Assembly: GCA_922989275.2 (NCBI GenBank)
Contig: OV277856.1
Coordinates: 82,851,038-82,915,037, forward strand
Source of the DNA: Gari tellinella
Lineage: Eukaryota > Mollusca > Bivalvia > Cardiida > Psammobiidae
Direction: 5' to 3'
Length of the DNA: 64,000 nt
A program made the translations under genes and the position numbers. The notes under the pieces are model-generated. The model searched no databases and was not told where the DNA came from. It worked only from the letters and a program-made list of their open reading frames with translations. Below, piece after piece: positions 4,473 through 64,000 of the stretch. The stretch's first letter is position 1. The number at the start of each line of letters is the position of its first letter.

Positions 4473-4693
4473 GACAGAGGAGAAAACGTTATTCTTTTCC
4501 CAATTAAAACGTTTACGCTTAATCTATAATTTCCATGGCAAACAGTTTGGAGCCAGATCAGACGCCGGGTAACCCGTCGTCTAATCAGACTCCAAACTAT
4601 TTGCAACTCAAATTGAAATGAATAGATTGTTATATCCAAAAGTTGCTTTTTTCTACATTTTAGTGCACTGCGTTTGCATTTCGTTCCACTGTA
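4473..4693. mobile_element. Family C MITE, decayed
   Basis: The left edge (GAGGAGAAAACGTTATTC) and right edge (TTCCACTGTA) are family C ends. The core-1 hairpin lies at 4538-4604 with several mismatches. The left TIR has lost its exact TACAGTGG start. Confidence 0.75.
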
Positions 4694-4814
4694 CATACTT
4701 CGTATTTGGCGTGTACACTTCAAGAGAATGATAATAGAAAGATGTATGGCAAACGTTTATATAAACACGTAAATATTAGTTTAAGATAAAAATAAATAAT
4801 CGTAACTTTCTTTT

Positions 4815-4908
4815 AGCTCTGGTAGGAATCGAACCTGGGTACTGCCATGCGGGGACGGAAAATAATAAAAAATTGAGTCAGGCGTGTTACCGATTGAGTT
4901 AGATGGGT
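4815..4908 (-). pseudogene. tRNA-derived sequence (SINE head or tRNA pseudogene)
   Basis: On the minus strand there is a good B box (GGTTCGATTCC, 4825-4835) and an A-box-like stretch (TAACTCAATCGG, 4890-4901). The region between them is A/T-rich and does not form an anticodon arm, and the acceptor ends do not pair. It is therefore a tRNA relic, not a working tRNA gene. It lies just outside the left end of the large foldback. Confidence 0.6.
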
Positions 4909-5771
4909 ATTTTCAATTAAGGTACTTCGCATGTGCGCTTAGTTTTCATACAAATGTTATGAAACTTTTCATGAAGAATGATATTAGCCTAAGAAACAAT
5001 GTGTGAAAATATAGGCAAAATGTATCGATTGGTTTGTCTTTAAGGTATCTTTTTCTGACAAAAACCTGGAATTTTTATGATTTTATTTTTCTCAAAAATA
5101 AATAAAGCTAATGACTATAAATCTCGCCCAATAAGTAGTCCATAACATTCATTACAAGAAAAGCTGAAAACATTTTGAATAAAGGTGTTCAGAAAGATGT
5201 TATCAGCTATTTAAATTTTGCAAAATGCTAAAAAATTGATTTACAAAAAACTGACTCATTCAATGTATATTTGTTTTCGTTTTATTCAAATGTATGGTTT
5301 ATGAAAAGGTTAGTCTGAAAAAATTAGAAAATATTACAGTCAGGATTTGTTGTAGTAACAGATTTTCTTATTAAAATGTGGGATATTTGAAGTTGAGATA
5401 CATTACCTACCTTAAAATTAAAATTCTGTCATTAAAATGCATTATTATTTATTCATGGACTTGCATACAAGGGTAATTATATTTTTCAAACATAATAATA
5501 ATGGGCAATATCGATCTTGAAAAGGTTGACGTATAGATAAGCTTCAATGTGTGGCTTTATATAGTTAGATCAAATCGTATACATGTATACCGATTTAATT
5601 GACTTGTAAGTCACTAAACTAAAACGTACATGTAAGTAGACATTTTAGTTGGACTGTATATAACATCACTAATTCTAATCAACGAAGACTAGAAAATAAC
5701 ATGTCCCTTGATCACTGCGTTATAGATTGACAAGTCAATAAATCGGAAACTTAAAAAAAATACTTTGGATC

Positions 5772-5840
5772 GGATGGGTCTCGAACCTATGACCTTTGCA
5801 TTGCTAGTCAGCCACTATACTGACTGTGCTATGAAGGATT
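5772..5840 (-). pseudogene. tRNA-like segment in left foldback arm
   Basis: Minus-strand B box GGTTCGAGACC (5777-5787) and an A-box-like stretch (5820-5832) lie at roughly tRNA spacing. The acceptor stem does not pair, so it is not a functional tRNA. It is the arm partner of the copy at 7465-7537. Confidence 0.6.
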
Positions 5841-6239
5841 ATACTAGATCGTATCAACATTTCCTTTATATAAATTTTCTAGTATAAGCACGTATGGAAA
5901 ATGATCAAGTCGTCAAGACGCATATCCGCTCGCCCGCAAGACCGACTTCCGGTAGCGAAAGGCCTTAAAGACGGTCGATTCAACCTATAGTTTAGTGTAC
6001 AGCGAGTGAGAATATGTACTGTGTATGCATGTGCGTGCGCAAACGATGCGAAATTAATTTAGTCATTCTCATTTTTTTTCTTCTTTACGCATTTGATTTG
6101 ATGGAAGAACAATATGCGTGTCTCGTTGACTGATCTGGGAAATAGACCCAAATACAACATTCAATCTAACTTTTTGCAGGGAAAATATTTACATTTAAAT
6201 CTCCTAACCGACTCAAACACTTAACGCCTATCGTCCCCA

Positions 6240-6320
6240 ATAGTAGGCATTGGCAAACAGTGTAGACCGTGATTATACGCTGAAATACGAGGCGTCAAAT
6301 TAGGGTCTGCACTGTTCACT
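6240..6320. repeat. Decayed core-1 hairpin (GTGTAGACC type)
   Basis: CAAACAGTGTAGACC near 6254 and GGTCTGCACTGTT near 6304 are the two shoulders of a decayed G/Q-type hairpin. The middle of the stem no longer pairs. Confidence 0.5.
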
Positions 6321-6445
6321 ATTTCACATATAATAATCTGCTACATGAAACACTGCAGTGCCTCTAGACCACCCTTGGATATTGCAATGAAGTCTGCCAG
6401 AAAGCAAACAGAGCGAGTCCGTTACAACGTCCAAGCATAAATTAG

Positions 6446-6657
6446 TTAACCATTTCACTCTCAATGACGCCTGAAAGCGCGTTTGCAAACAGTTTGGATC
6501 CTGATCAGACGCCGCGTAAAGCGGCGTCTGATCAGGATCCAAACTGTTTGACACTCGTATCGGTATTTTTTAAGTCATACTACTTTGAATCTTACTTTGA
6601 AACGATCTTGTTAACAGCACATTTTAAGCTGACGACAATGAAACGGTGAAGGAGTAA
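6446..6657. mobile_element. Family A MITE in foldback spacer
   Basis: It begins at TTAA (6446-6449) and ends at a decayed GTAA. The central hairpin at 6486-6550 has two perfect 30-bp arms (CAAACAGTTTGGATCCTGAT...) around a 5-nt loop, GTAAA. The shell is weaker than the core, as in most copies. Confidence 0.85.
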
Positions 6658-8373: not shown

Positions 8374-8624
8374 TTAACCCATTACCTTATAGCCTGTTTC
8401 TAGATTTGAAAATATTTGACTTTTTAAAACAGGTTGAAAGTAAAGCAGAATGCGCCCTAAGGCGCATTCTGCTTTACTTTCAGCCTGTTTTAAGTTACCA
8501 CCTACTAGAATTAAGAAAATATTTCTTCTGATAATTTTTCAGGACTGTATAGACTGGAATTATTTTCTTCCGCGGAGGATTAAAGGAATGCGCTAAAAGG
8601 CGCTTCTATAAGGTAAAGGGTTAA
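8374..8624. mobile_element. Family B MITE abutting the foldback
   Basis: It runs from TTAACCCATTACCTTATAGC to AGGTAAAGGGTTAA with core-2 hairpin at 8426-8492. Its left TTAA (8374-8377) is also the right TTAA of the large foldback, so the two elements share one target copy. Confidence 0.85.
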
Positions 8625-14012: not shown

Positions 14013-14078
14013 CCTGTGAAGAGGCAATTAACAACCAATCTCACAGGCACTATAGTATATGTTTGAGTTGGATATGAG

Positions 14079-16309: not shown

Positions 16310-16345
16310 CAGTCACTGTAGAGTCACTGTAGAGTCACTGTAGAG
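16310..16345. repeat. Short tandem repeat, 11-bp unit
   Basis: GAGTCACTGTA repeats about three times immediately before a family D element. The unit resembles the CACTGTA end of the TA-type MITEs, so it may have arisen at their border. Confidence 0.7.
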
Positions 16346-16809: not shown

Positions 16810-17054
16810 TACAGTGGAGAATCTGTTATTCTTTCCCGTTTAAACGCAAACGTAACGCAAAGCACTTAAACGTAGAAAAGAACAACTTTTGGACAATTCT
16901 GATAATTCTTGTTTATCTTGGTGGCAAACAGTTTGGAGCCTGATCAGACGCCGGGTTACCCGGCGTCTGATCTGGCTCCAAACTGTTTGCACTGCAAATA
17001 ATAGTTTTAGCGTAAACGCGTTTATTGGGAAAGAATAACACATTCTCCACTGTA
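16810..17054. mobile_element. Family C MITE
   Basis: Both TIRs present (TACAGTGGAGAATCTG; CACATTCTCCACTGTA). Hairpin 16924-16990 with perfect GCCGGGTTACCCGGC centre. Confidence 0.9.
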
Positions 17055-23404: not shown

Positions 23405-26400
23405 GTAAGTAGGCTTGCTGCCGTTAAAGTCAAACCTGTGTTTGTGACCATGCACCGGGTGAAGATGCATGGTGATCTTTTCAGACAGATGGTCGCTTAA
23501 TGCTAGGCAAAAGACGCACAGAAGGCTCCTACAGGAGCGTTCTGTTGGACTCTTCTCTCTGCGTTAAGCTGCCACCTGTCATGTATAACAAATGCACCAT
23601 CTGTTAACCCTTAGCCTGCCACTCACGACTATAGCTCCATATGCAAACAGCTTGGATCCGGATGAGACGCCGAGTAACTCGGCGTCTCATCCGGATCCAA
23701 GCTGTTTGACACTCGGACAACATTTTCAGCAATTTTGAGCAACTTTGAAGCACTTTGAAACTTGAAGCAGACGAGAAATATAGCAGACGACAATTTATTT
23801 GGCGGGCTAAGGGTTAATGGTCATCTAATACAGGTTTGACTGTTTGCGACCACGCGGTATTAGGTCTTTCACTCATTCTCCCCTGAAACTTCAAATGGAC
23901 AAGTCCAGTTCCAATTAATATTAGTTCATGTTTTACTATGAAGGAATACTTTACAATATATTGCCAAAATTGACATGAAGTGCAGACCTTAATCAAAAGG
24001 TTCTTGCATGGAGAAGCCCTCTGATCTTGGTCTAACTGTTTGCATAGTATCAGTGCACTATTTAGTGGAGGAATAAATAAAGGCGTAAAATGAGTATTTA
24101 AGGAGAAAGGGGTTAAAAGAACTGGCATAATATTAGTCATCTAACTATTACTGAAGACGAGCACTTATGCAGACACATTGCCTAGCTCGAAAAATGTTAA
24201 AACACATGTGATCTACCATACCAAGCTTTATGACACTATACGTAGTTTTTGGAATATTCAGAGAAAAATGTGTAAACATTTCAAGAGAAAGCATAAACAG
24301 TACAGTCAAAAGGAACAACAGCATATTAATGATGTTAAAGACAGGTGGTAAATCTCGGCAACAGAAAGTTTAATCTTTATTTGTTCAACATCGATTATAC
24401 CCGGCGTCTGATCAGGCTCCAAACTGTTTGTTCCTCAAATTTAAAGAAAGTGACAACATTTTCAAGAAATTGTCATTATCTACATTTTATAGCAATGCGT
24501 GTACGTATCGTTTAAACGGGAAAGAAAATGTAGCAGTCGAAACTCGATACATCGAACTCACGTTAATTCAAACATACCCATATTTCAAAGTTAAAAACGT
24601 GGCTTAGCCACGTTTTAACTTTGAAATACGGGTATGTTCGACTTATGCGAGATCGACTTTTCGAAATTCAACTTATGAAATACTTGTACGGTCGATTTAA
24701 GCGAGTTCGAAGTATTGAGTTTCGACTGTATTCTCCATTTTGTATCTGTGTTTCAGATATATGAATGTTACCAATGCCAAATGCAAGCAGTTCTTGCAGT
24801 ACGCAGCGTTCGAGTTTGCCAAACTTAAGAAAGGCAATGACAAACTTCCCAAAGACGACCCGGCGGTCAAGGAGATGTATGATGGGTTAGTGGAGAAGGT
24901 CATGACCTCTAAGGGTCCAGTCATTAAAACAGTGGTAAGATAGCCATAGTAACGGCATTTATTCTTAGCTCAGTATACTATGGGGAAGACGTTATTCTTT
25001 CTAAACGCGTTTATGCTAAAACTATATATGATTTCTTTGCTAACAGTTTGGGGGCCAGATCTGACAACGGGTAACCTGGCCCCGAGGTTATAAAACTTAA
25101 TATGATTTCTGTGCTCAAAACTCACAATTTTTCTCAGCTCATAACACTTCAGCAAACATTTTATAATATATAACAACTATTTGCATACCATAACTCTATT
25201 GTAAAAATACAAGTATATCCAAATCAGGTTATTTAAATCAGCTCAAGCAAGTTTTGTAAAAACTAAAGCATGTAATCAAAACTGAGTTTTGAGCACAGAG
25301 TTCGTTTTAAGTTTTATAACATCGGGTTCCGAACTTTTAGCCACTCAGATAAAACTAAATCTTCAACTAATTTCCAACATTGTCTTGCCATTGGTTTGCG
25401 TTTAGTTTAAATGGGATTGGGTAGCGTCTTTTTCTCTGTTAATAAATTATTATATAATATCTTCGTTATCGCGAATTCTCTAAAACCATGGCGTGCGATC
25501 GGTTTTTAACCCATTACCCCATAGCCTGTTTCTAGGAGTTAAAATATGTGACCTATTAAGGCAGGTTGAAAGTAAAGCAGAATGCGCCCTAGGGCGCATT
25601 CTGCTTTACTTTCAGCCTGCTTTAAGCTACTACCTGCTAGGATATAGAAAATATTTCTTATGGTACATATTCATGACAGTATAAAATGGAACTATTTTCT
25701 TTGACGGATGAATAAAATACATGCGCTAAAAGTCGCTTCTATAAGGGAAAGGGTTAAGGCAGATGGCTGCGTAAAGTAGGATGAAGGCTTTGCAGAACAT
25801 TACTACAAGAGCAGCCCATTTTAATTTGACTCTTAATTTGTTTGTTTTTCGTTTGTGTGTTATTGTTGTTTTTGTTTGTTTAACTATATTTCTATTGAGG
25901 TGTCGAAAAAGTTGACTGTCTTAAGTGGTAAACTGGCGAGGCTATAACAAATCTGAACGCAGTAAAGTGGAGAACGCGTTCTTCTTTCCGCTTAATACAG
26001 CGCTCCCTCTCTACAACGACATCCAATGGGAGACACAGATTGTGTGTGTTGTTCGGAGGAGGTCGTTATAGGGACGGAACATTTTAAGACTTTGCTTACA
26101 TTTGCAAACAGCTTGAATCCAGATCAGACGCCGCGTAACGCGGCGTCTGATCTGGATTCAAGCTGTTTGTCACTCGTCATTATATCTATTCTATCAAAAT
26201 GTCCACTTATATGTAACTTTGAAAAAAACTGCAGACGACAAAGTTAAGCAGACGGTATTGCAGTCATGAAAAGGTTGGACAAAAATGTCTTGTTTGGGGA
26301 ACATCGGCAATGGTCGTTGTAAGGAGGGAATCGTTGTTGGGAGGGGCGTTGTAGAGAGGAAGCGCTGTAGCAGCTAAACACAAACGCTATAAAATAAGAT

Positions 26401-36201: not shown

Positions 36202-36411
36202 TACAGTAAAACCTCTCTCTTACGACCACTAAATTGTGTTAAGTATTAGGGTGTTTACGGTAGGTGACCGCTTTAAGCAAGGTGACAGTGAAACAGAAAG
36301 CTCCTTAAGGAGCTTTCTGTTTCACTGTCACCTTGCTTTAAGCTGTCACCTCTCTATTATACAATCAATTAGTCTTTGTTTTAGTTGTCGTAATCGGGAT
36401 GTTTTCCTGTA
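36202..36411. mobile_element. Family D MITE
   Basis: TACAGTAAAACCTCTCTCTT at left. The core-2 hairpin 36270-36343 is perfect through AGCTCCTTAAGGAGCT with no loop. The right TIR is mutated (GGGATGTTTTCCTGTA). Confidence 0.88.
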
Positions 36412-36488
36412 TGTCACATAGTGTTTCCTTGTACAGTAACTCCCCTCTGTTACGACAACTGAAAACACTAATCGGTGGTATTATTATC

Positions 36489-36696
36489 TACTGTGGAAAC
36501 TCGATACTTCGATTTCGATTAAATCGCTAAAATCGATTGTACCAGTATTTCATGAATTGAATTTCGATACCTCAATTTCACTTAAGTCGAACATACTCGT
36601 ATTTCAAAGTTAAAACGTGGCAAAGCCACGTTTTTAACTTTCAAATATGGGTATGTTCAAACTAACGCGAGTTCGAATTATCGAGTTTCGACTGTA
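36489..36696. mobile_element. Family F MITE
   Basis: The left TIR is mutated (TACTGTGGAAACTCGATA); the right is TATCGAGTTTCGACTGTA. Hairpin 36589-36661 with GTGGCAAAGCCAC centre. Confidence 0.82.
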
Positions 36697-46021: not shown

Positions 46022-46267
46022 AGGCCTGCCATAAGTTGATAAAAAAAATCCTAAGATTTCAAATTTTTCAAGCCCGATTTTCCTGATTATACCTTTAACC
46101 CAAAGTCTGTTTCTAGTTTTTTAGACACTTGTTGCTTAAATCAGGTTGAAAGTAAAGCAGAATGCGCCTTAAGGCGCATTCTGCTTTACTTTCAGCCTGT
46201 TTTAAGCTTCCATCTGTTGGAATAAAAATCCGGAGATTTCGGAAAAATCCGGAGAAATGGCAGCCCT
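46022..46267. mobile_element. hAT-like R element, copy 1
   Basis: AGGCCTGCCAT at left, ATGGCAGCCCT at right. The 8-bp flanks GCAGATAC and GTAGATAG match at 6 of 8. Inside is a B fragment (TTTAACCCAAAGTCTG onward) with core-2 hairpin at about 46132-46208. Confidence 0.75.
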
Positions 46268-51600: not shown

Positions 51601-54600
51601 ATAATATGGTTTTTGGAGGAGACATAACAATTTTTAAATTTTTTTTGCTTTTAGCTCCTGCCTGTTTTTTACACCATCAATTATATAGCCTTCTGTTTTT
51701 GGGGTCGTTTTCATGTACTTTTGTTATCTTACATGTTAGGCAGTGTACGCCCTGATCAGATATGGTGCTTTAGAAAGAACTTGTTAAATATTAATTTTGC
51801 AATGCAATAAGTCATATTTTCTCATCACATGACTTATCAATGAGAGGAGCTGTCGGTGGATCATACCTGCTCATCATAAACTCCACAATCTCATAGTCAT
51901 TGGACTGCTTGGACATGTTGTCTCTGACCGCTCCGAATGTGTCATTGAGGATGGACAGGAACATGTTGACCACAATGAATGTGATGGTGACCACAAAGAG
52001 GAAGAGGAAGATCTGAGTGAGCCACTGGTTCACCTCTAACATGTTGTAGATGTCAAACTTGCCCATCATCATCACAATACCTGTACAAATATAGAATAGC
52101 AAATCAATTACCGCATAAATATGATTTTCTGTACCTTTAATTTTCTCCTCCACTCAAGAAAATATATACAGTCATGAATATGAACCATAAAGATTTTCTA
52201 CAACCTTAGCAGATTGTAACTTAAAGCAGGTTACACAGTGTATGCATTCACCCACCCTATACACCAAAGAGACCCACTGTTATGAACTGTTGTATTAATG
52301 ATTTTACTGTTTAAATAAATTGAACAATTTACAACATAATGCATTATTTACCAGATTTACTGACATATTGCTTTCAGCAGTCACAGGGCTACCATAAGTT
52401 GACATGAAAAATCCTAAGATTTCCAAATTTGCATTTTTCAAGTGCGATTTTACAAATCGTACGTTTACCCCATCGCCTGTTTCTAGTTTTGTTGCATATG
52501 GCTGCTTTAAGCAGGCTGGAAGTAAAGCAGAATGCGCCTTAAGGCGCATTCTGCTTTACTTTCAGCCTGTTTTATGCTACCATGTATATTAGAAAAAAAT
52601 CTGAGGATTTAGGAAAAATCCGGAGAAATGGCAGCCCTGCAGTCACTAGCATTAAACATCAAAATCAATCATTAATTCAATCATGAGAAAAATGGGGGTC
52701 TATTGTATGTACAGTGCCCCCTTTCCAGAGCAACAAACTAGTAAATAAGAATAGAGCTCTTTAAAAGCAGGTGACTGTTTAATGCTGGACAAAAAAATGC
52801 AGAAAGCTCCTTTAGGAGCTTTCTGCATTATTTCTGTCAAGCATTAAGCTGTCACCTGTCTTGACCAACCACAAGTAGGTTTTATTTGAGTGTCATTGAA
52901 GAGAGATTTTACTGTTAAACTTACCGGCTTCACAGGAGCTGAGGAACGTCTTGAAAGTGTTGATACGGGCAACATAGATCAGATAGAACACCTGGATAAA
53001 TGCCAGGAACACTATGTTGAAGATGATGCTGAAGTGGATCAAGTCCTTGGCAGAGTTCTTCAGGGTGTCGGCCAACAGCGAGACTCTCTTGTTGAATCGC
53101 AGCAGCTTGAGGAACTTCAGACAGGCGAAGTATACCAAGAACCCAATGATGTAGCTGAAGATCTCACTCCAGTAGCCAACGTATTGGAACTTCATGTAGC
53201 CATCTCCGTTGGTTTCACTGAAGTACTCCGTGAGCTCATTGATGCAGACGAGACGGTAGAAGTATATTACTATAGCAGTCACTGACATGGCACAGATACA
53301 CAGCTCGATGATGTTCCAGAACTGGTAGAAGTACTTCAGTCTCTGTTTGTAGAACGCTCGTATCTCTTTGATCACAAATGAGACAGTGAACAGGAAGTAG
53401 ACGATCTCACAGATGATCTGGAACAGTAACACTGAGCTCATGTAAGGCAACAAGGTCGCTGGCTCAAATCTGTATGTAGTGAAGACACCACCGCTTGGAC
53501 GGAATTCTGCTAACATTGTAGAGATTGCAAACATATTGATGGCAGGGTTATAGACTGTGAATTCCAGGAATACTGCTCTGGTGTACTCATCTATCCATTT
53601 CTCCTGTTCTAGTTGTTTGAAATGGTCGAACATGACTTGGTAATCCTTGTTCAGACGGACAACATAGCCGCCTCCACTGTACATGGCCATCTCGCCCCAG
53701 TATGGGTAACCATTGAGAATATCGGAATCTGTGTATGTGTACTCTGGCCTGGTAACAAAAAACTTTAATTTAATTAAGTAGACACACAGTCAAAGAGCAC
53801 TATTTTGAACCAGCGGAGTCATGTGGAACAAATCCATATTTCAATGTTAAAATGTGGCTCTGTTATGTTTTTACTTTGAAATATGGACATGTTTGACTAA
53901 ATAACCTTTAACTCCATAGACTCACATTTACACATTTAACCCTTTCCCTGATAGAAGCGCCTTTTAGCGCATTTGATTTATTCGTCCGCTGAAGAAAATA
54001 GTTCCAATTTAATCAGTCATGAATATATATTATAGGGAATATTTTCTATATTCTAGCACATGATAGCTTAAAGCAGGCTGAAAGTAAAGCAGAATGCGCC
54101 TTGAGGCGCATTCTGCTTTACTTTCAACCTGCTTTCAGTAGTCACCTATCTTCAATAATATAAATAAGCTATCAGGTAAAGGGTTAATGACATCATACCT
54201 TGAAGAAAATAGTTTCAATTTATACAGTCATGAACATAATGAAAAATGCTTTCTTTATTCTAGTAGATGGTAGCTTAAAGCAGGCTTAAGACTGCTTTAC
54301 TTTCAACCTGCTTTAAATGATAAGCTTCATGCTCAGGTGAGCAATGTTAAATATGACATACCTGCTCTGATTAACGACATTACTCCAGCCAGGACCAAAG
54401 TCTTTCTGTTCCTCCACACGAGAACTAAAGGGAGCATTGCACTCATCAATGATGTTATCAACTTGGTAGGGCACCTTGCAGGAACCTGTCAATATATACA
54501 TGTACAGTAAAACCTCTCTATTACGACCACTAAATTATGTTAATCATTAGGGGTTTTACGATAGGTGACCGCTTAAAGCAAGGTGACAGGGAAACAGAAA

Positions 54601-57600
54601 GCTCCTTTTGGAGCTTTCTGTTTCACTGTCATCTTGCTTTAAGCTGTCACCTGTATATTATACAATCAGTTAGCCTTCGTTATAGTGGTCGTAATAGCGA
54701 GGTTTTACTGTATATTCTATATATTTTGATCATTTAATCACTTTCCCAATGTAGAGATGCAGGCTATGGGGTAATGGGTTAAATTACTTTCAGCCTGCTC
54801 TATCCAAAGCACCATTTTAGTTTACTGTCATCCTTTAAAAACAATGTAGATATTAACTATTAAGAATATTTTTGTCCTGTGTAAACAGTGTTCAGAGGTC
54901 AGAGGTGAGATCTCTGCTTAGTAGGTCTGCAAATACCACTAGTCATTTTGGAATATATTACAAAAAGCAACTCTTAATTGTCAAAGATAGAGTGGACTTA
55001 ATTGTTAACTCGAATTGTCCATTTGAAAATGGAGTAAATGAGTTAAGCATTGGTGAGTAAAGACATCCTTAAAGAGACTGAAAAACAAAATGATGTATTT
55101 GCAAAAAAAGGAGAAAATACCCAAATATAAGCAAATTTGTCGCTTTATTCATAATCGCATATATATATGAAAATCACTGAATATTGTTTTCTTTTAGATT
55201 TTTCCATCATTTTTTCTACTCCCAACCTATAATTGAGTTAAATTATAAGATCTGTTTTTGAAACTTTTGGTAAAGAATACAATTACGATAAAAGACGATA
55301 AAATATGAATTTACAAAAGAAAAGGGTAAACACTTGCAGTCAGCATAATGCCCTTGTCGAGAGGTTTTCAGTTTTTATACGCTTATTGAAAATATTAAAA
55401 TTTATAATTCTTTATTGTTGACCTGGTTCAACTCTGAGTTGTCGCAGCACAGCGTAGCCCATTATCCTGGAGACCTTGTCATTAATGTAGCCTCTCATAT
55501 AGAATGGTGGAAAGTTGTTATAGTATGGTCCAGCACGTAAGCCTCTCAGCATTCCAATACGTGCCCAGCTCCAGAAACTCCCGACATTTGTTATCTGCAA
55601 GTACAAATCATCTCTAGTAAATCCTTCAGGAGTACAGGAGTCATACAATAAAGAAACATGACAGTCTCTAACAGACAGATTTATTAGTCCATTACTCCAT
55701 ATACATGCTTTTTTACACCCTTAACCTAAACCTTTCCCCCATAGTAGCGCCTTTTAGCGGATATAAAAATTCATTCCTCCTCTGAAGAAATAGTTCCAAT
55801 TTATACAGTTATGAAAATGTATCGTAATAAATATTTCTGAATCTTAGAACATGATGGCTAAAAGCTGACTGAAAGTAAAGTAGAATACACCTTAAGGCAC
55901 ACTCTGCTTTACTTTTAACCTGCTTTAAGTTTCATCAACTGTCTTTGAATCAAACCTAGAAGCAGGTTATACCTTAGAGTGAATTCTGCTTTACTTCCAA
56001 ACTGCTTTAACCCTTTGAACCCTAGTCCCGCATATAGGCGTCCTTTTCAAACAGTGTACATGTTAAAGGTGCACTTGTCCTGTGCAAACAGTGAAGACCC
56101 AGATCAGAGGGCTCCAAAAGGAGCCCTCTGATCAGGGTCTTCACTGTTTGTCATAATGCCAAACATTGACAAAAACAACCCTTAAAAGTCAGAAATGGAC
56201 TAAACTAAAATGGAAACTGGGATTGTCCATTTGAAGTTTCAGGGAGGAAAGAGTTAAGTTGAAACCTATCTTCAAAACTGAGAAACAGGCTAGCTCTTGA
56301 GTAAGGGGTTAAATTAGGCCTCAATACCAATAAGAATAAAGCAACAGTTGTGTTTTTTATTGATAGTTAACAAATAATTGAGCATCTGTAATCAAATATA
56401 TATACAGTGCTCCGGGCCTGAGCCCTTAACCCTTTACCTGATAGCCTATTTCTAGAATTGAAAATAGGCTACTACTTAAAGCAGGTTGAAAGTAAAGCAG
56501 AATGCGCTTAAGGCTCATTCTGCTTTACTTTCAGCCTGCTTTAAGCTATTACCTGCTAGAATAAGGAAAGTATTAAATATGACACATATTCATTACGGTA
56601 TATATTGGAACTATTTTCTTCAGCGGATGAATATAATGCATGTGCTAAAAGTCGCTTCTATAAGGGAAAGGGTTAACAAGTCCTCCGAACAATGACTCAC
56701 TTCTTACAACAACACTTTCCACTGTACCAAAGACAATTATGTCCAAAGTTTTTACTGTTGCAATATTGTCTGCTTAAAATTGTTCTCTACTGTTTGCTTA
56801 CATAATTGACATTTTTACCAAAAAAAATTCCACGATGACGAGTGACAACAGCTTTAACTCAGATCAGACGCCGCATTATGCGGTGTCTGATCTGAATTCA
56901 AGCTGTTTGCAAAATTATGTAAGTCAATTTCCATCCCTACAACGACTCCCACACACACAATCTTTGTCTGCCATTGGGTGCCATTGAAGAGAGGGGCACT
57001 GTACTTCTACAAAATAGGCTATGGCAGATACTATTATGTAATTTAATGATCATTAATGATGATTTTGGTCAAATTAATACAATTTTTTCCATTCTATGCT
57101 CTATGAGGGAAATATCAATGACTTTAACCCATATAGAGCCCTTATTTTGAATGACAAGTATACACATTCATTCACAAATAGTGAACCTTTGAAGAGTACA
57201 CTTGTCTTGAATTAGGCACTGGAGTAAAGGGGTTAAAAGGTAAATGTAAGACCTACGTTTGTAAAGGAATGATTGTATTGGTTGTCCACACACAGACTTT
57301 CTCCATGTTATGTTTGTAGTGGTAGGAGTTGGTGCTGACACTCTTATAGCTGATCACAAGTATACATATTCATTCACAAATAGTGTACCTTTGAAAAGTA
57401 CACTTGTCCTTATGAGGCAATGGAATAAAGGGGTTAATACAGTCAACCCTAGCAACGAGTATACTCGTCATTTACAAACATTGTACCTGTCTGGATTACA
57501 CTTGTCCTATGCAAACAGTGTAGACCCTGATCACAGGGCTCCTTAAGGAGCCCTCTGATCAGGGTCAACACTGTTTGTCATTTTGAAATGTATTGTTAAA

Positions 57601-60600
57601 ATCAACCCTAAAATGTCAAAAATGCACTAGACTTATTTTGAAATTGGAATTGTCCGTTAAGAGCTTCAGGAGTGAATAAGTTAACAGGTTAATGTAAGAC
57701 CTACGTTTGTAAAGGAATGATTGGTATTCGTTGTCCACACAAAGACTTTCTCCATGTTATGTTTGTAGTGGTAGGAGTTGGTGCTGACGCTCTTATAGCT
57801 GATCACAAGTAGAATCCACAGGAAGAATGCATAGAACAGGATCTCTCTAATAACTGACCACATCTGGATCTCCTTCAGTCGTAGCTGTCTAGCAGACTCT
57901 AAAGACTTCTGGTCCGGAGGTTTTGGCTTGTACATCGGACGTCTTGGAGCAATAAGGCCATATCCTGGACAAAGACAATAGTGTAGATAGGTTTATGATA
58001 AAAATAAGAAATCTGACGGAAGATTTTTGTGCACTTTTTGGGGAAAACCCATCTTGACACCACTAATATCATATTGCTCAACTCATTTACCCTGTGAAAC
58101 ATCAAGAAAATGTCCAGTTTTTAATTAAGTCTTGTCCAGTTTTGACAACAATGTAAGGTTGATTTTTACAATCTATTGCAAAATGGCAAACAGTACAGAC
58201 CCTGATCAGTGGGCTCCTTCAGGAGTCCTCTGTGGTGGTTCTGCACTGTTTGCATAGGGTATGATTGTGTGCTCTTCATGAGTACACTCCTTGTAAAGGA
58301 CAAGTACAATTGTCTCTAGAGCTCAGTGCATGAAGTCTTGCCTTATCAAAAGTAGACAAGACAAATAACTGCATCAAGAAAACATATAACAATGGGAGGC
58401 TAGATTATTTACATCCTTGGTTTCAAGTGTTCATCGGGACCATAGGGCTCCTGAAGGAGATCTCCAATCAGGATCTGCACAATCTGTCGTACTTTTATAT
58501 ATTTTGTTACAATATATATTATATCATAAAATAAATATGAATAATAGACATTTTCATTCCTGATAAGATGCCATCTGATCTGGATCTAAACTGTTTGTAA
58601 ATGAAAGTACAATATTAATGTCTATAGTATAATTAGCAGTAACTTATGGCCATACTAGTGCTAAGTACTAGTTTGGCCCCTTCTTCCCTGTGAAAGTGAC
58701 TTTTAGCTCCTTTTTTAGAAATCTATTCGTGTTTCTATAAGTTCAGCATTCAAGAGCCACAGGTAATTTTCATGTATCCTGAAGGATGTATGCTTAGAGC
58801 AGACTGAAAGTAAAGCAGAAAGCTTATTTAGGAGCTTTCTGCTTTACTTTCAGGCTGCTTTAAACATCCACCAGTCTTAAAAACTGAAAATATGCTATGG
58901 TAGAAATGTTGAATACAGATAGTATCCAGGGGTCTCTGGTATTCAGTTCCTTTTATTATTCCTGACTGCTCAGGCCAACATACCGTCATCTTCCTGGTGT
59001 AAGAATTCCTCGTCATTCTCCAGTTTCCTGGTTGGTTCCTCATCTTCGTCCTCCTCCTCATCACCCCCAGGGTTCTTTATGATCAGTGAGAAAATGATGG
59101 CAAACAGGAATACCTACAAGTACACCACACACCATTGTACAAAACACCATATAGTGTAATCGTTTGGCATTAACCCTTCTCTCACTGTCTACTCATATAT
59201 ACAACTCGTCCTTGTCTCAGAGGTACCTTTATGCAGAACAAAGGTAAGCAAAACAAGCAATGTGTTTGGGAAACAAAAAATTTATGCTGGCAGCCAGCAG
59301 CATGTTTGGTAATGTAATGCTTATATACAGAAGCAGGTTAAAGGTTAAGTTCACATGGTAAAAACATGGGTATATGGTTGGAAAGGTCTTTACACAAGAA
59401 AGATAAATACAAAGTATGGAATCCCTAGGCCTTTATGGTCTAATGTTATAAGCATTTTAAGATTTTTTAAAAAGAAGGTAAAAGGTCAAAGTCAAGGTCA
59501 TGCGGGCAAATATGTTGGCATGGTCAGAAAGGTCTCATCCAAAGGAAGGCACATGCCAAGTATAAAAGGCCCATGTGTAGTAGTGCTAAAGGTTAAGTAC
59601 TTTGGTTAAATATGTCAAAGGTCAAGGTCACATGGTAAAAACATTGATAAAGTTGGCAAAATCTTGATACAAGAAAGATACATACCAAATATGGAAGCCC
59701 TAGGCCCATAGGTTGAAATGTTATAGGCATTTAAAGATTTTTTTACAAAAGTAAGTAAAATGTCGGGGAAATCTTGTAGACGGGCAAAACTGCTAGCATA
59801 GTCTGAAAGGTCTTGACAAAAGGCACATGCCAAGTATAAAAGGCCCATGTGCAAGGGTTATAGTTAAGGTTTATAGTTTAATTTTAACTAAATAGGTCAA
59901 AGGTCAAAGTCAAGGTCACATGGTAAAAAACATTGATATGGTTGAAAAGGTCTTGACACAAGACTGATACATATCAAATATCGAAACCCTCTGCCGACCT
60001 ATTGGTTCAAATGTTATAGGCATTTAAAGATTTTTTTTATAAAAGTAGGTTGAAGAGGTCAGAATGGGACGAATGTAAATATTATCAAATAGCTTTCTCT
60101 TTTAGTGGTGGAAATAGAGTTTCATTTTATTGTACTTACCTTGATAGGTTGGGTTAGGAACACTGAGGTGAAGAAGGAGATCAACATTGACGTGATCCAC
60201 TTCTTACACTTGATATCCTGGAACTGAATGCCATAGAATGTGACAAAGGCCATTGACACCATAACTGCAAGCCACAGCAGGATCCACGACACAATGGTAA
60301 ACCACCATGGTAGAGTACACTTCTTCTTCTTGGATTTCTTAGAAGCTGCATCAATACCGAGTGAGGAATCCGGTCTAGACATGGAGGACTCGGAACGTTT
60401 GGCATCTATAAGGAATGAAGACCCGGGCCTGTCAACAGACATGGAGCTCTTCATCCTCATGTTGACGTCCGTCATTGAAGTGGTACGTTCTGGCATGGAC
60501 TTCAGGGCTTCCTCAACACGTGAAGGACGCAGCTTACGAGGTCGTGACTTACGGAACAGAGTTATGATGAGGAAGTTTATTGGGAAGATGATGATATTAC

Positions 60601-62254
60601 ACGCCACTCCAATAAAGATCTGTTTAAAAGAAATAAAAGAATAATAATTTAGTGCTAAGCAGAAGTGTCCCTTTACGGTTTATCACATAGAATTATCTGC
60701 ATATTCCTAAATGAGATACCTATCCACAATTTTTACCATGCCAGGTGTTAAAGAGCCATTGAAATTTTCTGCATCTCGACTGATGGACACTTACAGCAGG
60801 CTGAAAGTGAAACAGGGAGCTCCTTACAGAGCTATCTGCTTTACTTAAAGCCTGCTTAAACCTTTCATTGTCAAATTTATCATGAGCTTTATTTTGGAAA
60901 CAATTGTCAAACAGTTTTGCATAATACGGCATCTGATCACAACAGTGAAAGGGTAAATTTCAAGAATAAAGACAATGATCAAACTCCATGGTACCTGTTC
61001 ATGCATGATCATGAGACAATTATGATTGGGTAAGAGAATATAAAGAGGCATAATAAAACTAAAACTGAAAGTTCACAGTATTATGGTTATGTGTTAAAAT
61101 CAGCTGATAATATCTAGGGTTTAACTCTTTGCATGCTGGGTAATTTTTTCATCTGCAAAAGTTGTATGCTACTATTCAAAAAATAGTTTTCAGAATTTCT
61201 TTCGAAAACAGAGTGGGTGTTGAACAGTTTTTTTTTTTATCCTGGTGAGATGCCACTTTTTGCCACAGACCAATAGAAAATGTTTCCTACATCGTGACAA
61301 GTAACTGCTGAAAGCTGACTTAAATTAAGTGTAACTTTATTTTCAGCCTGATTTAAAGTAATTATCTAGCTGTCATCATCATCAAAGGAAATTAAATAAT
61401 GAAGAGGTAAAAGGAGTTACAATGAAAAAGTCAATAAAGGAGGGGGTATAACTCATTCATCCAAGAATCTTCAAATTAACAATTCTTGGAACTTCTAATA
61501 TAGGTCAGTCCATTTTTGTCTAAGCTTATTTTTTAATAATACATTGCAAACTGACAAACAGCAAATACCCTGACCAGGAGCCCTCCAATCAGGGTCTACA
61601 CTGTTTGCATATTACAGGTGTACTCTTTACTAGTACAGTGTTTGTTTATGACAAGTTACTCATTGCTAGGGTTAAATACTTTAACACAGGTACGGACATA
61701 CTGTAAAACCCGTTGTATTCGCAAGAATACAATTTACGCGTTATTTCGCCAATTTAATGTGTTGCCTCATGTCTCTAGTTTTTAAAATAGGTGACTTCTT
61801 AAAGCAGGTTGAAAGAAAAGCAGAATGTGCCTTGCTTTACTTTCAGCCTGCTTTAAGCTACTACCTGCTAGAAATATTGCATGATGTTGCGAATTAATAC
61901 AAAATCTCATTATGCGAAATATTCATGACGCGATAATACCTGTTTTATAACTAAATTATTAAGTAACACCAATGATCTGACCTGTTCTGGTGTTAGTGCA
62001 AAAGGGCCAAAGGAATAGGCTGTACTGTCTGAGCTCTCCGTGCCATAGAACATGGCATTGGCCAACATGGACATGTATAACAAACACAGGCAGCAAGACA
62101 CTCTCTGACATCGCGTAAATCTGCTCTGTGGGGGCCGGGCAACAACTGAGAACCACAGGTGGCCGTCACTCAGATTCTTGGTGGCACGCTCGGAGAACAT
62201 GTAGGAGAACTCTGTCATCTGTTCTTTACCAGCTACTGGGATAACACGGTCAAC
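48506..62254 (-). CDS. Polycystin-1-like protein (PKD1/PKD1L2 family), 3' ten exons
   Basis: Ten exons joined on the minus strand give 931 codons without a phase break; the 5' end is outside the window. The product starts after the expected PLAT region with DGHLWFSVVARPPQSRFTR (30-48). It has eleven likely membrane helices: about 51-70, 92-113, 196-221, 232-247, 250-264, 336-351, 584-607, 621-644, 670-695, 718-739 and 778-800. Between helices 6 and 7 lies the extracellular polycystin (TOP) domain (about 353-583), with SFWSWAR, YYNNFPPF and CGG-type GGGYVV motifs. The last six helices form a TRPP-type channel domain with pore region around MMMGKFD (758-764) and VNMFLSILNDTF (792-803). A basic/Ser-rich loop (115-191) and an acidic stretch (269-277) are cytoplasmic by analogy. 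The family pairs with polycystin-2 subunits; partner and ion are not shown here. Paralog assignment within the family is uncertain. Confidence 0.93.
48741..48996. mobile_element. Decayed family B MITE in intron i
   Basis: TTAACCTTTTACTCC at left; TATGGAGTAACTG at right. Hairpin 48877-48950 with mismatches. A family A half (GCAAACATTTTGGACCC) follows at 49008. Confidence 0.65.
49138..49330. mobile_element. Family D MITE, decayed ends
   Basis: TACAGTAAAATATAC at left. Core-2 hairpin 49206-49276 with AGCTCCTTTAGGAGCT centre. Right TIR lost. Confidence 0.65.
49408..49670. mobile_element. Family B MITE and (TA)n tract
   Basis: Hairpin about 49530-49603; right end CAGGGTTAA (49639). A (TA)n microsatellite follows at 49651-49668. 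Confidence 0.65.
49719..49850 (-). CDS. Polycystin-1-like exon i
   Basis: 132 nt, residues 827-869, cytoplasmic tail with ESEKKKNYTTLEGQIDYF. Acceptor AATTGACAG; donor GTAAGT. Confidence 0.9.
50014..50249. mobile_element. Family B MITE with shortened right arm
   Basis: Both TTAA ends present. The hairpin right arm goes from CATTCTGCTTTA directly to AGTGGTCACC: the segment between its two CTGCTTTA copies is gone (about 50144-50198). Confidence 0.85.
50506..50744. mobile_element. Family B MITE, left-truncated
   Basis: Starts within the left shell (GACTTTTTACATCTCTCATT). Right end GGGGTAATGGGTTTAA. Hairpin 50623-50694 perfect. Confidence 0.82.
51010..51186. mobile_element. Long-stem foldback S in intron h
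   Basis: Arms of about 75 bp run from AACTGGTTTTTTTCAGTGTA to a GTGGCGAAGCCAC centre and back. The mid-stem pairs with few mismatches. Confidence 0.8.
51300..51345. promoter_or_regulatory. Two CRE-like sites
   Basis: TGACGTCA at 51311-51318 is a perfect CRE core; a second (TTGACGTCATC) follows about 20 bp later. They lie in the intron upstream of exon i. Function is not shown. Confidence 0.35.
51867..52080 (-). CDS. Polycystin-1-like exon h
   Basis: 214 nt, residues 756-825. Pore end and S6: MMMGKFDIYNML, then VVNMFLSILNDTFGAV. Acceptor ATTTGTACAG; donor GTATGA. Confidence 0.95.
52385..52638. mobile_element. hAT-like R element, copy 2, exact 8-bp duplication
   Basis: GCAGTCAC at 52377-52384 and again at 52639-52646 flanks the element. 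The ends are AGGGCTACCAT and ATGGCAGCCCT. Inside are a B-derived stretch (TTTACCCCATCGCCTGTTTC) and core-2 hairpin 52505-52573. Confidence 0.88.
52710..52916. mobile_element. Family D MITE at the exon g donor
   Basis: Left TIR changed to TACAGTGCCCCC. Core-2 hairpin centre AGCTCCTTTAGGAGCT with long GACAGGTGAC-type shoulders. The right TIR (GAGATTTTACTGT) stops about 9 bp from exon g. Confidence 0.82.
52925..53748 (-). CDS. Polycystin-1-like exon g
   Basis: 824 nt, residues 481-754: the end of the extracellular domain (YWGEMAMYSGGGYVVRL, RPSGGVFTTYRFEPA), S2-S5 and the beginning of the pore. Acceptor TTTGTTACCAG; donor GTAAGT, followed after 9 nt by a family D TIR. Confidence 0.95.
53800..53910. 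mobile_element. Decayed family F hairpin in intron f
   Basis: CATATTTCAATGTTAAAATG and TTTTTACTTTGAAATATGG are F-type arms with a collapsed centre. Confidence 0.55.
53936..54187. mobile_element. Family B MITE
   Basis: TTAACCCTTTCCCTGATAGA to TATCAGGTAAAGGGTTAA. Hairpin 54066-54137 with a central GCCTTGAGGC. This belongs to a B subfamily with GATAGAAGCGCC shells (also 8374 and 56426). Confidence 0.9.
54198..54322. mobile_element. Family B fragment, left arm deleted
   Basis: GCTTAAAGCAGGCTTAAGAC leads straight into CTGCTTTACTTTCAACCTGC, so most of the left arm and centre is missing. Confidence 0.65.
54362..54485 (-). CDS. Polycystin-1-like exon f
   Basis: 124 nt, residues 440-479. Cysteine pair region GSCKVP to DECNAPF. 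Acceptor ATATTGACAG; a family D MITE starts 18 bp upstream of it. Donor GTATGT. Confidence 0.9.
54503..54712. mobile_element. Family D MITE at the exon f acceptor
   Basis: Exact TIRs TACAGTAAAACCTCTCTATT and AATAGCGAGGTTTTACTGTA in TA. Core-2 hairpin about 54561-54656. Only about 17 bp separate it from the acceptor AG at 54486-54487. Confidence 0.92.
54880..55045. mobile_element. Family Q/G fragment
   Basis: A shortened core-1 shoulder (GTAAACAGTGTTCAGAGG) and right shell (TTGTCCATTTGAAAATGG) to GTAAATGAGTTAA. Confidence 0.55.
55423..55594 (-). CDS. Polycystin-1-like exon e
   Basis: 172 nt, residues 382-438. Polycystin-domain motifs FWSWARIGML, YYNNFPPFYMRG and RIMGYAVLRQLRV. The donor GTCAAC is weak but gives the right phase. 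Confidence 0.88.
55725..56312. mobile_element. Family B MITE interrupted by family G
   Basis: The B left shell (CCTTTCCCCCATAGTAGCGC) and hairpin near 55853-55930, followed by a second partial right arm. It is split at CTGCTTTAA by G (56007-56257), and the B right shell (CCTATCTTCAAAACTGAG) continues to AGTAAGGGGTTAA. Confidence 0.75.
56007..56257. mobile_element. Family G MITE nested in a B hairpin
   Basis: TTAA at 56007-56010 and 56254-56257. Shell TTAACCCTTTGAACCCTAGT. Hairpin 56085-56150 with GGGCTCCAAAAGGAGCCC centre. The target is the hairpin shoulder of B. Confidence 0.9.
56403..57003. mobile_element. Family E MITE interrupted by family B
   Basis: TACAGTGCTCC at left; AAGAGAGGGGCACTGTA at right. 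Own hairpin 56846-56909. The B insert lies 22 bp from its left end. Confidence 0.82.
56426..56676. mobile_element. Family B MITE nested in family E
   Basis: TTAACCCTTTACCTGATAGC to AAGGGAAAGGGTTAA, TTAA at both ends. Hairpin about 56476-56545. Confidence 0.9.
57124..57236. mobile_element. Solo TTAA shell without hairpin
   Basis: TTAACCCATATAGAGCCC to CTGGAGTAAAGGGGTTAA, 113 bp. The interior resembles the G/Q shell (AAGTATACACATTCATTC, GAGTACACTTGTC) but the core is absent. Confidence 0.65.
57248..57358 (-). pseudogene. Partial duplicate of exon d in the next intron
   Basis: This stretch copies 57697-57809, the 3' part of exon d and its donor region, with about six differences and one small indel. 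It lacks an acceptor and ends in a repeat (AAGTATACATATTCATTCAC), so it is probably not spliced in. Confidence 0.85.
57443..57684. mobile_element. Family Q MITE between the exon d copies
   Basis: Left TCAACCCTAGCAACGAGTAT; right GAGTGAATAAGTTAA. The hairpin 57512-57577 is perfect except for one arm change, centre GGGCTCCTTAAGGAGCCC. Confidence 0.85.
57705..57964 (-). CDS. Polycystin-1-like exon d
   Basis: 260 nt, residues 295-381. Contains S1 (ILFYAFFLWILLVISY) and the start of the extracellular domain. Acceptor TTTGTCCAG; donor GTAGGT. Its 3' part is duplicated at 57248-57358. Confidence 0.92.
58080..58602. mobile_element. Decayed Q and A relics in intron c
   Basis: 58080-58330 is a Q copy with hairpin 58186-58252 (CAAACAGTACAGACC). 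58428-58490 is a second broken Q hairpin. 58558-58602 is a right core-1 half. Confidence 0.6.
58670..58905. mobile_element. Decayed element with core-2 hairpin, D-type centre
   Basis: The hairpin 58794-58866 has B-type shoulders but an AGAAAGCTTATTTAGGAGCT centre like family D. The shell is unclear. Confidence 0.55.
58984..59113 (-). CDS. Polycystin-1-like exon c
   Basis: 130 nt, residues 252-294 plus one base. Hydrophobic VFLFAIIFSLIIKN, then acidic DEEEDEDEE. Acceptor GTACTTGTAG; donor GTATGT. Confidence 0.9.
59352..60050. repeat. Tandem repeat with AGGTCA blocks
   Basis: Three units start at 59352, 59629 and 59918 (period 277 then 289), each opening CACATGGTAAAAACAT and containing AGGTCAAGGTCA-type words, GAAAGGTCTTGACAC and TTATAGGCATTTAAAG. 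The third unit is partial. Confidence 0.8.
60140..60619 (-). CDS. Polycystin-1-like exon b
   Basis: 480 nt, phase 0, residues 92-251. Helix 2, a basic Ser-rich loop with three SSMS/PDSS-like blocks and KSKKKK, then helices 3 and 4. Acceptor TTTAAACAG; donor GTAAGT. Confidence 0.93.
60620..61698. other. Intron a with MITE relics
   Basis: 60784-60862 is a decayed core-2 hairpin. 60905-60955 is a core-1 remnant. 61123-61270 has a P end (TTAACTCTTTGCATGCTGGG). 61447-61675 is a Q copy with shortened hairpin (about 61555-61609). Confidence 0.6.
61699..61949. mobile_element. Family K MITE, copy 2
   Basis: TACTGTAAAACCCG at left; the right end is decayed (CCTGTTTTATAA). GCGAAATATTCATGACGCG is shared with copy 1 in reverse. 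The core-2 hairpin about 61799-61857 has lost its centre. It ends 31 bp before the exon a donor. Confidence 0.75.
61982..62254 (-). CDS. Polycystin-1-like exon a (first seen)
   Basis: Residues 1-91, phase 0 at both ends. Acceptor TTTTGTGTTTAG; donor GTCAGA. Contains FTRCQRVSCCL and the first helix, and ends FALTPEQ, the usual junction before helix 2. Confidence 0.92.
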
Positions 62255-62524
62255 CTAAACACAAAATACAGATGTCACCTGCCTTGTCTGTAAAACATAT
62301 ATGGTGTCCCCTACATGGATGTAAGGTAAATGCCCGTTTATACATGTGAAAATATCCGGCAAAATTTCAATAGGCTGCAGTTTGGAAACAGTGGTAGAAG
62401 TTAGACAGACAAAGTATTTACTGTATGGATGAATTCAGACAACAGACAGATAGGATAAAACAGTGTATGGCCTATACAAATGGTTGTGAGGGATCAACAT
62501 TGGAAAGAGTTGAGGGTAAAACAT

Positions 62525-62860
62525 TTAACCAATTACCCCACAGCCTGCTACTAGTTTTGAAGACGGCCTTAACCCATTACCCCATAGCCTGTTTCTAATA
62601 TTGGAAGATACATGGGCACTTAAAGCAGGTTGAAAGTAAAAGCAGAATGTGCCTTAAGGCACATTCTGCTTTACTTTCAGCCTGCTTTAAACTATCAACT
62701 GCTAGAAAAAGAAAATATTTCTTATGATATATATTAGTGGCTATATAAATTGGAACTATTTTTTAAGAGGAGGAATAAATTAGAGGCGTAAAAAGGCATA
62801 TTTATGGGGTAATGGGTTAAGGTACATTCTGCTTTACTTTCAGCCTACTTTAAGAAGAAA
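62525..62860. mobile_element. Family B MITE nested in a B fragment
   Basis: The outer B' starts TTAACCAATTACCCCACAGC. It is cut at a CCTTAA site by a full B (62569-62820, hairpin 62619-62691) and resumes as TTAAGGTACATTCTGC. TTAA on both sides. Confidence 0.82.
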
Positions 62861-62984
62861 CTATTTCTCACGTTGCACAGTCATAAGACATTACTGTACA
62901 AAATAGAACACCTTTTTTCAGTGGAGGATTTCACTAGAACTATCACTAAAAGTGATGCATACCCCAACTCCCTGTCACATGTTC

Positions 62985-63320
62985 TGCACAAGGTTTTTCA
63001 ATAATCAAGGTCAAGGTAACCCAAAAGTGGTATGTGACACTCTGCCATTCTAAGATATAACCACACGCCACATTTGGTAATCCTTGCTGGCATAGTAAAG
63101 AACATTTCATCCGGACAAGGTGTAGATGGTATAGTATAGGAGTTATGCTCTTGACAAGGTTTTTTGAAAATAATCAAGGTCAGAGGTCAAGGTTTAAGTG
63201 ACCTGAAAGTGGTATGCTACACTCCGTCATCTCAAGATGTATGTACACACCAGGTTTGGTAATCATAGATGATGTGGTATAGATGTCAGGCAAGCAAATT
63301 AAGCAGATGTAACATGTGAC
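62985..63320. repeat. Two-unit tandem repeat with AGGTCA words
   Basis: Units near 62998 and 63170 share AATAATCAAGGTCA and AAAGTGGTATG, period about 175-180 bp. Related in word content to the repeat at 59352-60050. Confidence 0.6.
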
Positions 63321-63451
63321 CTTGACCTAAGAAGCAGAGAACCCTCAAATGAACAACAAAGATCTACAAGCAAGTTTGCTGCAAACTACATTTGGTCAGG
63401 ACTGGTCAATCCAAACTTCAGTAATCTGTGACGGATGACTGGATGAAGTAT

Positions 63452-63697
63452 AACCCTTTCATGATTAAATTTATTGTGATGTTTTTACCCTTTCCCGACC
63501 ATGTTGTGGTTTACTCAATATTTGTTGTCTGCAGCAACTTTTCAAACATAGATTTAAGGCAGTATAACTGACATGATTTCAAAACAAGTAGCAAACTGTT
63601 TTGATCCTGTTCAGATGCCGTGTTACGCCACGGCATCTGATAAGGATCAAAACTGTTTGCAAATGCACTTTATGAAGTCATTGAGAGTGAAAGGATT
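63452..63697. mobile_element. Family A-like MITE
   Basis: Left ATAACCCTTTCATG; right GAGTGAAAGGATTA. Hairpin 63592-63659 (CAAACTGTTTTGATCCTG to GGATCAAAACTGTTTG), with GTGTTACGCCAC at the centre. Confidence 0.75.
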
Positions 63698-63753
63698 ACA
63701 ACAATTTGCAGTGGCATATCAAGAGTTAAAAGGAGCCACTTTGCTGTTAGATG

Positions 63754-64000
63754 TACAGTAAAACCTCTCTATAACGACCACTTAAATACATTAACTATTT
63801 CGTGCTTAAGGTTGGTGGCTGCTTAAAGCAAGGAGATGGTAAGACAGAAAGCTCCTATAGGAGCTTTCTGTTTTATCATCACCTTGCTTTAAGCTGTCAC
63901 CTGCATTTTATAATATTTAACCCTTAGCCTGCCACTCACGACTATAGCTCCATATGCAAACAGCTTGGATCCGGATGAGACGCCAAGTAACTCGGCGTCT
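63754..64000. mobile_element. Family D MITE entered by family A
   Basis: D starts TACAGTAAAACCTCTCTATA. Core-2 hairpin about 63820-63893 with AGCTCCTATAGGAGCT centre. An A element begins at TTAA 63917-63920 and runs off the window, so the D right end is not seen. Confidence 0.8.
63917..64000. mobile_element. Family A MITE, cut by the window edge
   Basis: TTAACCCTTAGCCTGCCACT onward matches 23604-23687 with one visible difference in the hairpin loop region. Confidence 0.88.

Follow-up and report, generated by a model that had tools for sequence, protein, structure and literature searches.

Homologous palindromes ride in short elements with TTAA, TA and 8-bp target sites in the bivalve Gari tellinella and may have spread by nesting and trimming

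Families of miniature inverted-repeat transposable elements (MITEs) are named by their ends, and the sequence between the ends is usually taken as filler. The CMITEs of the coral genus Acropora are TTAA elements whose families differ less in a 75-bp internal region than in their terminal repeats; CMITE-IN is a new element generated by the insertion of one CMITE into another, and the CMITE copy number in A. millepora was estimated at about 1600 (PMC2872659; here and below, PMC numbers refer to the accessible part of each text). The MITE MER6 carries a V domain of short interspersed elements (SINEs), a conserved module amplified together with a DNA-transposon shell (PMC6887750). Here we analyze a 64,000-nucleotide stretch of the genome of the bivalve Gari tellinella (the window; contig OV277856.1, C1:82851038-82915037; the genome comprises 1.6 Gb in 80 contigs) that contains a large number of hairpin-forming palindromes. 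Two groups of homologous palindromes, core 1 and core 2, lie within short elements, or shells, whose target sites follow TTAA, TA and 8-bp rules. We favor, with moderate confidence, the reading that the cores moved between shells by nesting, trimming and amplification and not by repeated exchange.

Similarly to the coral elements, the interior here is better conserved than the ends, and composites arise via insertion; unlike the CMITEs, which are TTAA elements as described, the present cores cross to TA and 8-bp shells, are palindromes and occur in far more copies (PMC2872659, in whose accessible text no word begins with palindrom- or hairpin). In MER6, the module is a SINE domain that was captured once, and no palindrome common to several shells is involved (PMC6887750). 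The TTAA shells resemble piggyBac-type TTAA MITEs in the TTAA duplication and the CCCT/CCCA-type ends, and differ from them in containing a near-perfect palindrome of 65-72 bp whose arms evolve as a pair. To our knowledge, no piggyBac-type TTAA MITE family has such an internal paired-arm palindrome. The literature searched, which covered few subscription papers, contained no report of one palindrome common to TTAA, TA and 8-bp shells; a text search with the core words returned papers unrelated by title, viral contigs gave 0 matches, and the words palindrome and hairpin are absent from the accessible text of PMC10294476 and PMC8905726. The internal palindrome thus described outlives the ends, occurs under three target-site rules and behaves in evolution as a single unit. 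Two questions thereby become testable: by what means cut-and-paste MITEs attain their very high copy numbers, and whether the interior besides the terminal repeats determines which copies amplify.

At a cut-off of at least 45 bits and at least 40 nt, 73 palindromes were counted in the window, in agreement with the approximately 75 hairpins of a preliminary description of this DNA; each of eight first-order Markov shuffles of the window gave 0. Twenty random 10-kb regions contained 161 palindromes (157 without those longer than 450 nt) and four additional regions contained 45. Pooled, the random regions gave 202 palindromes in 240 kb (0.84 per kb), indicating a genome-wide feature. Sampling of the random places was confined to the first 40 Mb of each large contig (27 Mb in two cases), and a rough extrapolation of that density, from these contig starts only, gives about a million palindromes in the genome. 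Sorted by similarity, the window palindromes comprise 32 of core 1, 29 of core 2, 2 of core 3, 3 of core 4 and 7 others; the window together with the first 20 regions holds 230 hairpins (93, 72, 10 and 10 of cores 1 to 4, and 45 others). A scan for short elements with terminal inverted repeats (TIRs) and target-site duplications (TSDs) recovered 62 with a strong palindrome and 23 without, and a shuffle gave 1. The 23 include several that represent hairpin arms, the window's 42-bp tandem array or copies of shell E with deleted arms, and they therefore provide no clean comparison of hairpin-less MITEs.

Two further kinds of palindrome were noted. End-to-end long palindromes at window positions 27321-27475, 40656-40816 and 51008-51188 fall, by eye, outside cores 1 to 4. 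At L024:4833-10000, reaching the end of the retrieved stretch, lies an inverted duplication with arms of at least 2.57 kb and 0 mismatches except in the central 12 bases per side, its center being inside a core-1 TTAA element; it could be either a hairpin-centered duplication or a fold-back assembly artefact.

Core 1 rides in the TTAA shells D, d, f, c, f2, f3, f4 and g and in the TA shells E and b; core 2 rides in the TTAA shell B, the TA shells K and z and the hAT-like shell y (Table 1). Shell ends were set at the points where copies stop matching. The claim that homologous cores occupy shells with different target-site rules was thereby borne out, core 1 with TTAA and TA and core 2 with TTAA, TA and 8 bp; the shell letters A to R used in the preliminary description were undefined, and families were matched through their ends. 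Many full-length B, D and c copies have TTAA on each side; one end is degenerate in some copies and in those of d and g from the window. TA on both sides, together with matching terminal repeats, was found for E, b, K, p4 (a shell with an unrelated palindrome) and one copy of z, the duplication length being judged from the flanks alone. Shell y appears hAT-like from its 8-bp duplication; another copy at L014:2539-2793 has 7/8 of the duplication, and three stretches in L030 and L031, matched by y-type ends alone, have 6/8, 7/8 and 7/8. In shell t3, the 8-bp duplication is 1/8 in both window copies and 8/8 at L027:2258-2448. The automatic TIR/TSD scan of the 230 hairpins assigned core-1 hairpins to TA (35), TTAA (6) or none (52) and core-2 hairpins to TA (13), TTAA (18), 8-bp-like (1) or none (40); by eye, 3/35 core-1 and at least 5/13 core-2 TA rows were not such shells, being hairpin arms of neighbors or the y copy at 46021.

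More than the palindrome is common to several of these shells, as revealed by comparing the flanks outside it against dinucleotide shuffles. The right flank of TA shell b matched flanks of TTAA shells f4, f, f2 and c (0/1000 shuffles each), the match to f4 extending to the degenerate terminal TTA, and its left flank matched that of f3 (2/1000). The left flank of TTAA element B matched the left flanks of both y and z (0/1000 each), and its right flank matched that of z (3/1000). Shell y aligns with B from base 6-8 of the B end through the hairpin. The preliminary description had proposed that the hairpin is a module spread by capture; given the common flanks, this is not supported in that form for b, y and z, and such capture may apply to E and K. 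Among the TTAA shells themselves, D and d have both flanks in common, and f, c, f2, f3 and f4 have terminal or flank sequence in common, so that many of the TTAA shells appear to form a single group of piggyBac type whose ends have diverged. One may extend this to all shells and suppose a single hairpin element whose terminal repeats drifted, the very case that the preliminary description had named as contradicting capture. Such common descent suits the TTAA group, which also has TTAACCC-type ends in common with piggyBac genes, and indeed applies to much of it (f, c, f2, f3, f4; D, d). It would not be expected to extend to the TA and 8-bp shells: TA ends, of which one type resembles DDE_1 transposon ends, and 8-bp hAT-like ends are unlikely to arise by point change from TTAA, and as an account of all shells we consider it improbable.

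Nesting of elements was directly observed. At L032:2336-2695, a copy of the TA shell K holds a complete copy of the TTAA shell c with core 1 at a TTAA, and the K hairpin is reduced to a stub. The K-plus-TTAACCC junction has 14 exact matches genome-wide, by junction sequence only, and a control has 0. Among 184 element copies, B was also found to hold D, d and y and, three times, another B; E lay within E twice, and D occupied a core-2 tip. Two y copies are without the B-derived left part, as expected from trimming. A three-step route would fit these observations. A hairpin-bearing piggyBac-type TTAA element would enter a TTAA inside a short element with TA or other ends, an arrangement that is seen; internal deletions would then strip the ends of the inner element and some of its flanks, as seen in differences between copies; and a copy with working outer ends might be multiplied by the transposase of the outer element into a new family that keeps the hairpin. 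The founding event would be needed about once per shell. These steps would suit b, y and z well and would be an extrapolation for K and E, because little or nothing beyond the palindrome remains in them.

The tip of the core-2 palindrome, for example at L022:7683-7928 and L013:7758-7994, is often CCTTAAGG, which is a TTAA target, and TTAA elements have inserted there. The idea that the tip is an insertion hot spot was set aside, two insertions being too few.

Cores and shells agree at the family level. Each shell family has essentially one sub-core, and one sub-core may serve several shells, as 1f does in four related TTAA shells and 2a in B, y and z. In a core tree (71 copies, 65 columns), the ten shells need 10 changes, the minimum being 9, with the TA shells interspersed among TTAA shells. 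Genome-wide, exact matches to an E shell carrying a core-1d/1g arm number 0. This agreement, from which it follows that no free swapping is seen, runs contrary to the incongruence of core and shell expected from capture. For 137 of 185 classified hairpins, the left and right flanks came from the same family; 5 were flagged as mixed, two families both matching from the core edge were found in 0, and the remainder lacked a match on at least one side. Left/right shell chimeras formed by recombination in the palindrome were accordingly rejected, as none begin at the core edge. Core swapping within E was also rejected: among 456 matches of the E left flank to a variant core, the six viewed differed from the E core by one or two bases. 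Genome-wide, 42,636 exact-flank E copies have an interior of hairpin size, and the six sequences viewed all contain the hairpin. Separately, L025:1077-2081 contains an apparent tandem duplication of about 533 bp with E copies, in which the hairpin is present in some and missing in others.

The two arms of the palindrome have changed together between families. Across nine core-1 family consensuses (a set that omits f2, with two copies), 20 of 216 outer pair cells had changed alike in both arms and 2 in one. In a set of eight core-1 sequences that includes two single copies, variation affects 9 of 25 pairs and in every case both sides, with 2 cells unpaired; slid controls gave 0-1 such pairs. 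For core 2, represented mostly by single copies, both-sided change is seen in 17 of 32 pairs (34 both-sided cells). Within families, the changes were largely one-sided: 71 against 1 both-arm change in E, 57 against 3 in b, 7 against 0 in D and 37 against 11 in the mixed f group. These patterns suggest that arms diverge in resident copies and stay symmetric in source lineages. In terms of the nesting route, arms would decay independently in placed copies, and in the source elements of new families they would have changed together. Such paired arm change at the origin of new element families is unusual.

Paired change in long, near-perfect stems could in principle reflect an RNA product, such as a small-RNA precursor, for which the hairpin is kept; covariation of the stems and the 10 one-sided cells of core 2, which are of the G-U type, would fit. 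This is highly improbable, as none of the nine variable pairs of the eight core-1 sequences is a one-sided (G-U) pair, 2 cells being unpaired, and Rfam gave 0 matches in the window at the curated threshold. A cause at the DNA level is favored because the core-1 set is without one-sided pairs, core 2 being less clean. The likeliest cause of the symmetry would be that template switching re-copies one arm in the source lineage, or that only symmetric copies amplify. Template switching rewrites one arm of an inverted repeat from the other (PMC8794818). The present arms would be like template-switch-corrected quasi-palindromes in that an arm is rewritten from its partner with paired changes; these papers deal with RNA genes, a coding sequence of yeast and mutation assays in yeast, and MITE source elements are not among the cases described (PMC8794818, PMC8604942, PMC3820800). 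A bolder and rather doubtful idea is that the palindrome is a portable amplifier, raising the copy number of any carrier element whatever its transposase, for example through replication stalling or gap repair, with one arm re-copied meanwhile. If true, it would explain the same palindromes in unrelated shells and the hairpins in 62/85 short terminal-repeat elements; each new successful family would start freshly symmetric, so that arms would change together between families and mostly not within them.

Returning to movement by nesting and trimming, a number of observations weigh against it. Two of the five non-TTAA shells, E and K, are without trace of a nested element. The flanks of K outside the palindrome gave no significant match against dinucleotide shuffles; K and B do have about 20 bases per side beyond the 72-bp core of B in common, mostly within the 90-bp palindrome of K itself. 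Comparison of the E flanks with those of other core-1 shells gave nothing surviving 36 comparisons (best 3/300 and 5/300); a single anchored match was marginal (7, the shuffle maximum being 6). Neither a single TTAA-to-TA change nor a single TA clade is rejected by the core tree (approximately unbiased test, p 0.46). In core 2, 10 cells are one-sided, and six pairs vary on one side only. Within B, 139 changes are one-sided and 23 both-arm, against a chance expectation of 2.3 for complementary changes; 15 of the 23 fall at two recurrent pairs and therefore point to sub-families, and a degree of paired change thus occurs inside a family as well. No pre-hairpin, or empty, shell was identified for certain, and copies were mostly chosen via their hairpins, so that hairpin retention is partly ascertainment. 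Finally, 477 exact-flank E copies have 0-30 bases replacing the hairpin, or about 1.1% against 42,636.

These observations bear on the alternative that the palindrome alone can move or be captured as a module and enters shells without its neighbors. The palindrome is the sole sequence that E and K have in common with TTAA families, and these two shells may reflect either capture of a bare hairpin or complete loss of its flanks by trimming. About 70 of 100 listed hairpin-less E copies have one 48-nt length and a single CAAACWGTTTG-like motif (11-13 bp) in three recurrent forms, and such forms keeping one motif can be read as an empty site. They equally fit a collapse of the palindrome between short repeats in its arms, from which recurrent short forms are expected, and they make up about 1% of the E copies with those flanks; they may be repeated losses, small families or empty-site remnants. 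Together with the flanks carried along in b, y and z, and with arm ends that are inverted and not direct repeats, this makes a bare module unlikely, though by no means negligible.

The preliminary description had also pointed to piggyBac, mariner and hAT transposases with matching ends. The genome contains 86 matches to piggyBac (PF13843) and 486 candidates for pogo-like DDE_1 (PF03184), 150 of which were scored and five loci compared for ends; the end matches to the shells were only partial. The piggyBac transposase loci L003, L005 and L006 have the ends TTAACCCTTT, also given as TTAACCCTTTCGGCGCCA; the right end of B matches that of L001 over 37 bp, and the TTAA shells have CCCT/CCCA-type ends in common with transposase-encoding piggyBac elements. 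An exact piggyBac parent for each TTAA shell was not found among the loci compared. Among the DDE_1 loci, L035 has TA-flanked p4-like ends (18/24 and 17/24), L037 has K-like ends (22/26 and 19/26) without TA flanks, and L034 has TA-flanked ends of its own type; none of the five is a partner for E, b or z.

The palindrome might alternatively be a DNA-binding site, for instance for a part of a dimeric piggyBac transposase, with symmetric change as co-evolution with the protein. Consistent with this, piggyBac and piggyBat ends have subterminal palindromes to which C-terminal domains bind in pairs (PMC11707139), and in shells f, c, g and f3 the core begins 41-42 bp from the aligned left end. The piggyBac palindrome is 19 bp (PMC11707139), much shorter than 65 bp, the use of the core in TA and hAT-like shells is left unexplained, and the clean-ended transposase loci L003, L005 and L006 show no such palindrome inside their ends. 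A binding role is thus quite unlikely.

A TTAA-bounded core-1 element lies at L001:944 to ~1145 and at L040:519 to ~720, apparently at the same spot beside two related piggyBac transposase genes, and these genes may carry the hairpin as cargo. This segment of about 200 bp, TTAACCC...GGGTTAA, had first suggested that the hairpin is a native end of an autonomous piggyBac. The idea was dropped: the similarity of L001 and L002 (98.75% over bases 1 to 3987) begins far upstream of the segment, which is hence internal, and core-1 hairpins are so dense (61 in 200 kb) that a nearby one is unremarkable. L007 and L038/L044, with degenerate core-1 arms near the gene and unclear ends, were not used; no core arm was seen in L039 and L041, nor in L042, which was looked at by alignment only.

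Table 1. Positions of hairpin-bearing shells in the window.
Shell	Target site	Terminal repeat	Copy (strand)	Hairpin	Other window copies	Remarks
E	TA	CAGTGGAGAATCTG	16810..17054 (+)	core 1a, 16924-16990	9499-9748, 10187-10423, 14805-15054, 18159-18408, 19253-19505, 20921-21164, 30639-30899, 35079-35328	
b	TA	CAGTGCTCCCTCTCTACAACG (consensus)	25996..26369 (+)	core 1b, 26105-26169	13179-13545, 22607-22967; 15688-16025 (part of hairpin gone)	with TTAA-element interior sequence
D	TTAA		56007..56257 (+)	core 1e, 56085-56150	33524-33774, 47672-47922, 40941-41178	apparently nested in B copy
d	TTAA group		57445..57684 (+)	core 1d, 57512-57577		relative of D; copy without left TTAA
f	TTAA		6446..6691 (+)	core 1f, 6486-6550	63451-63698 (opposite strand)	
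c	TTAA		23604..23817 (+)	core 1c, 23644-23708		n=4 copies, median identity 99%
f2	TTAA		44490..44716 (+)	core 1, 44543-44607		
f3	TTAA		39046..39263 (+)	core 1, 39086-39150		
f4	TTAA		46713..46935 (+)	core 1, 46824-46888		left flank resembles right flank of TA shell b
g	TTAA		37185..37412 (+)	core 1g, 37224-37290		degenerate right end
B	TTAA		8374..8624 (+)	core 2a, 8424-8493	25506-25757, 29463-29714, 53936-54187, 56426-56676	
K	TA	CAGTAAAACCTCTCTATTACGACC	36199..36412 (+)	core 2b, 36262-36351	14078-14291, 16345-16555, 54500-54713	
z	TA	CTGTAAAACC	61699..61947 (+)	core 2, 61798-61857	11923-12169	
y	hAT-like		52385..52638 (+)	core 2a, 52498-52583		8/8 duplication GCAGTCAC; with left part of B
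y			46022..46267 (+)	core 2, 46134-46207		inside B element; 6/8 duplication
t3	hAT-like, CAGGGCTCCAGATAA		10826..11021 (+)	core 3 (unrelated palindrome)	21447-21638	
p4	TA	CAGTCGAAACTCGATA (consensus-like)	36489..36696 (+)	core 4 (unrelated palindrome)		

Apart from the shells, the window contains on the minus strand an open frame without a Pfam match (60122-60607) and an exon of a polycystin cation channel (52893-53690; PF08016, 8.6e-34). Positions 1-3313 are occupied by about 80 copies of the 42-bp tandem repeat.

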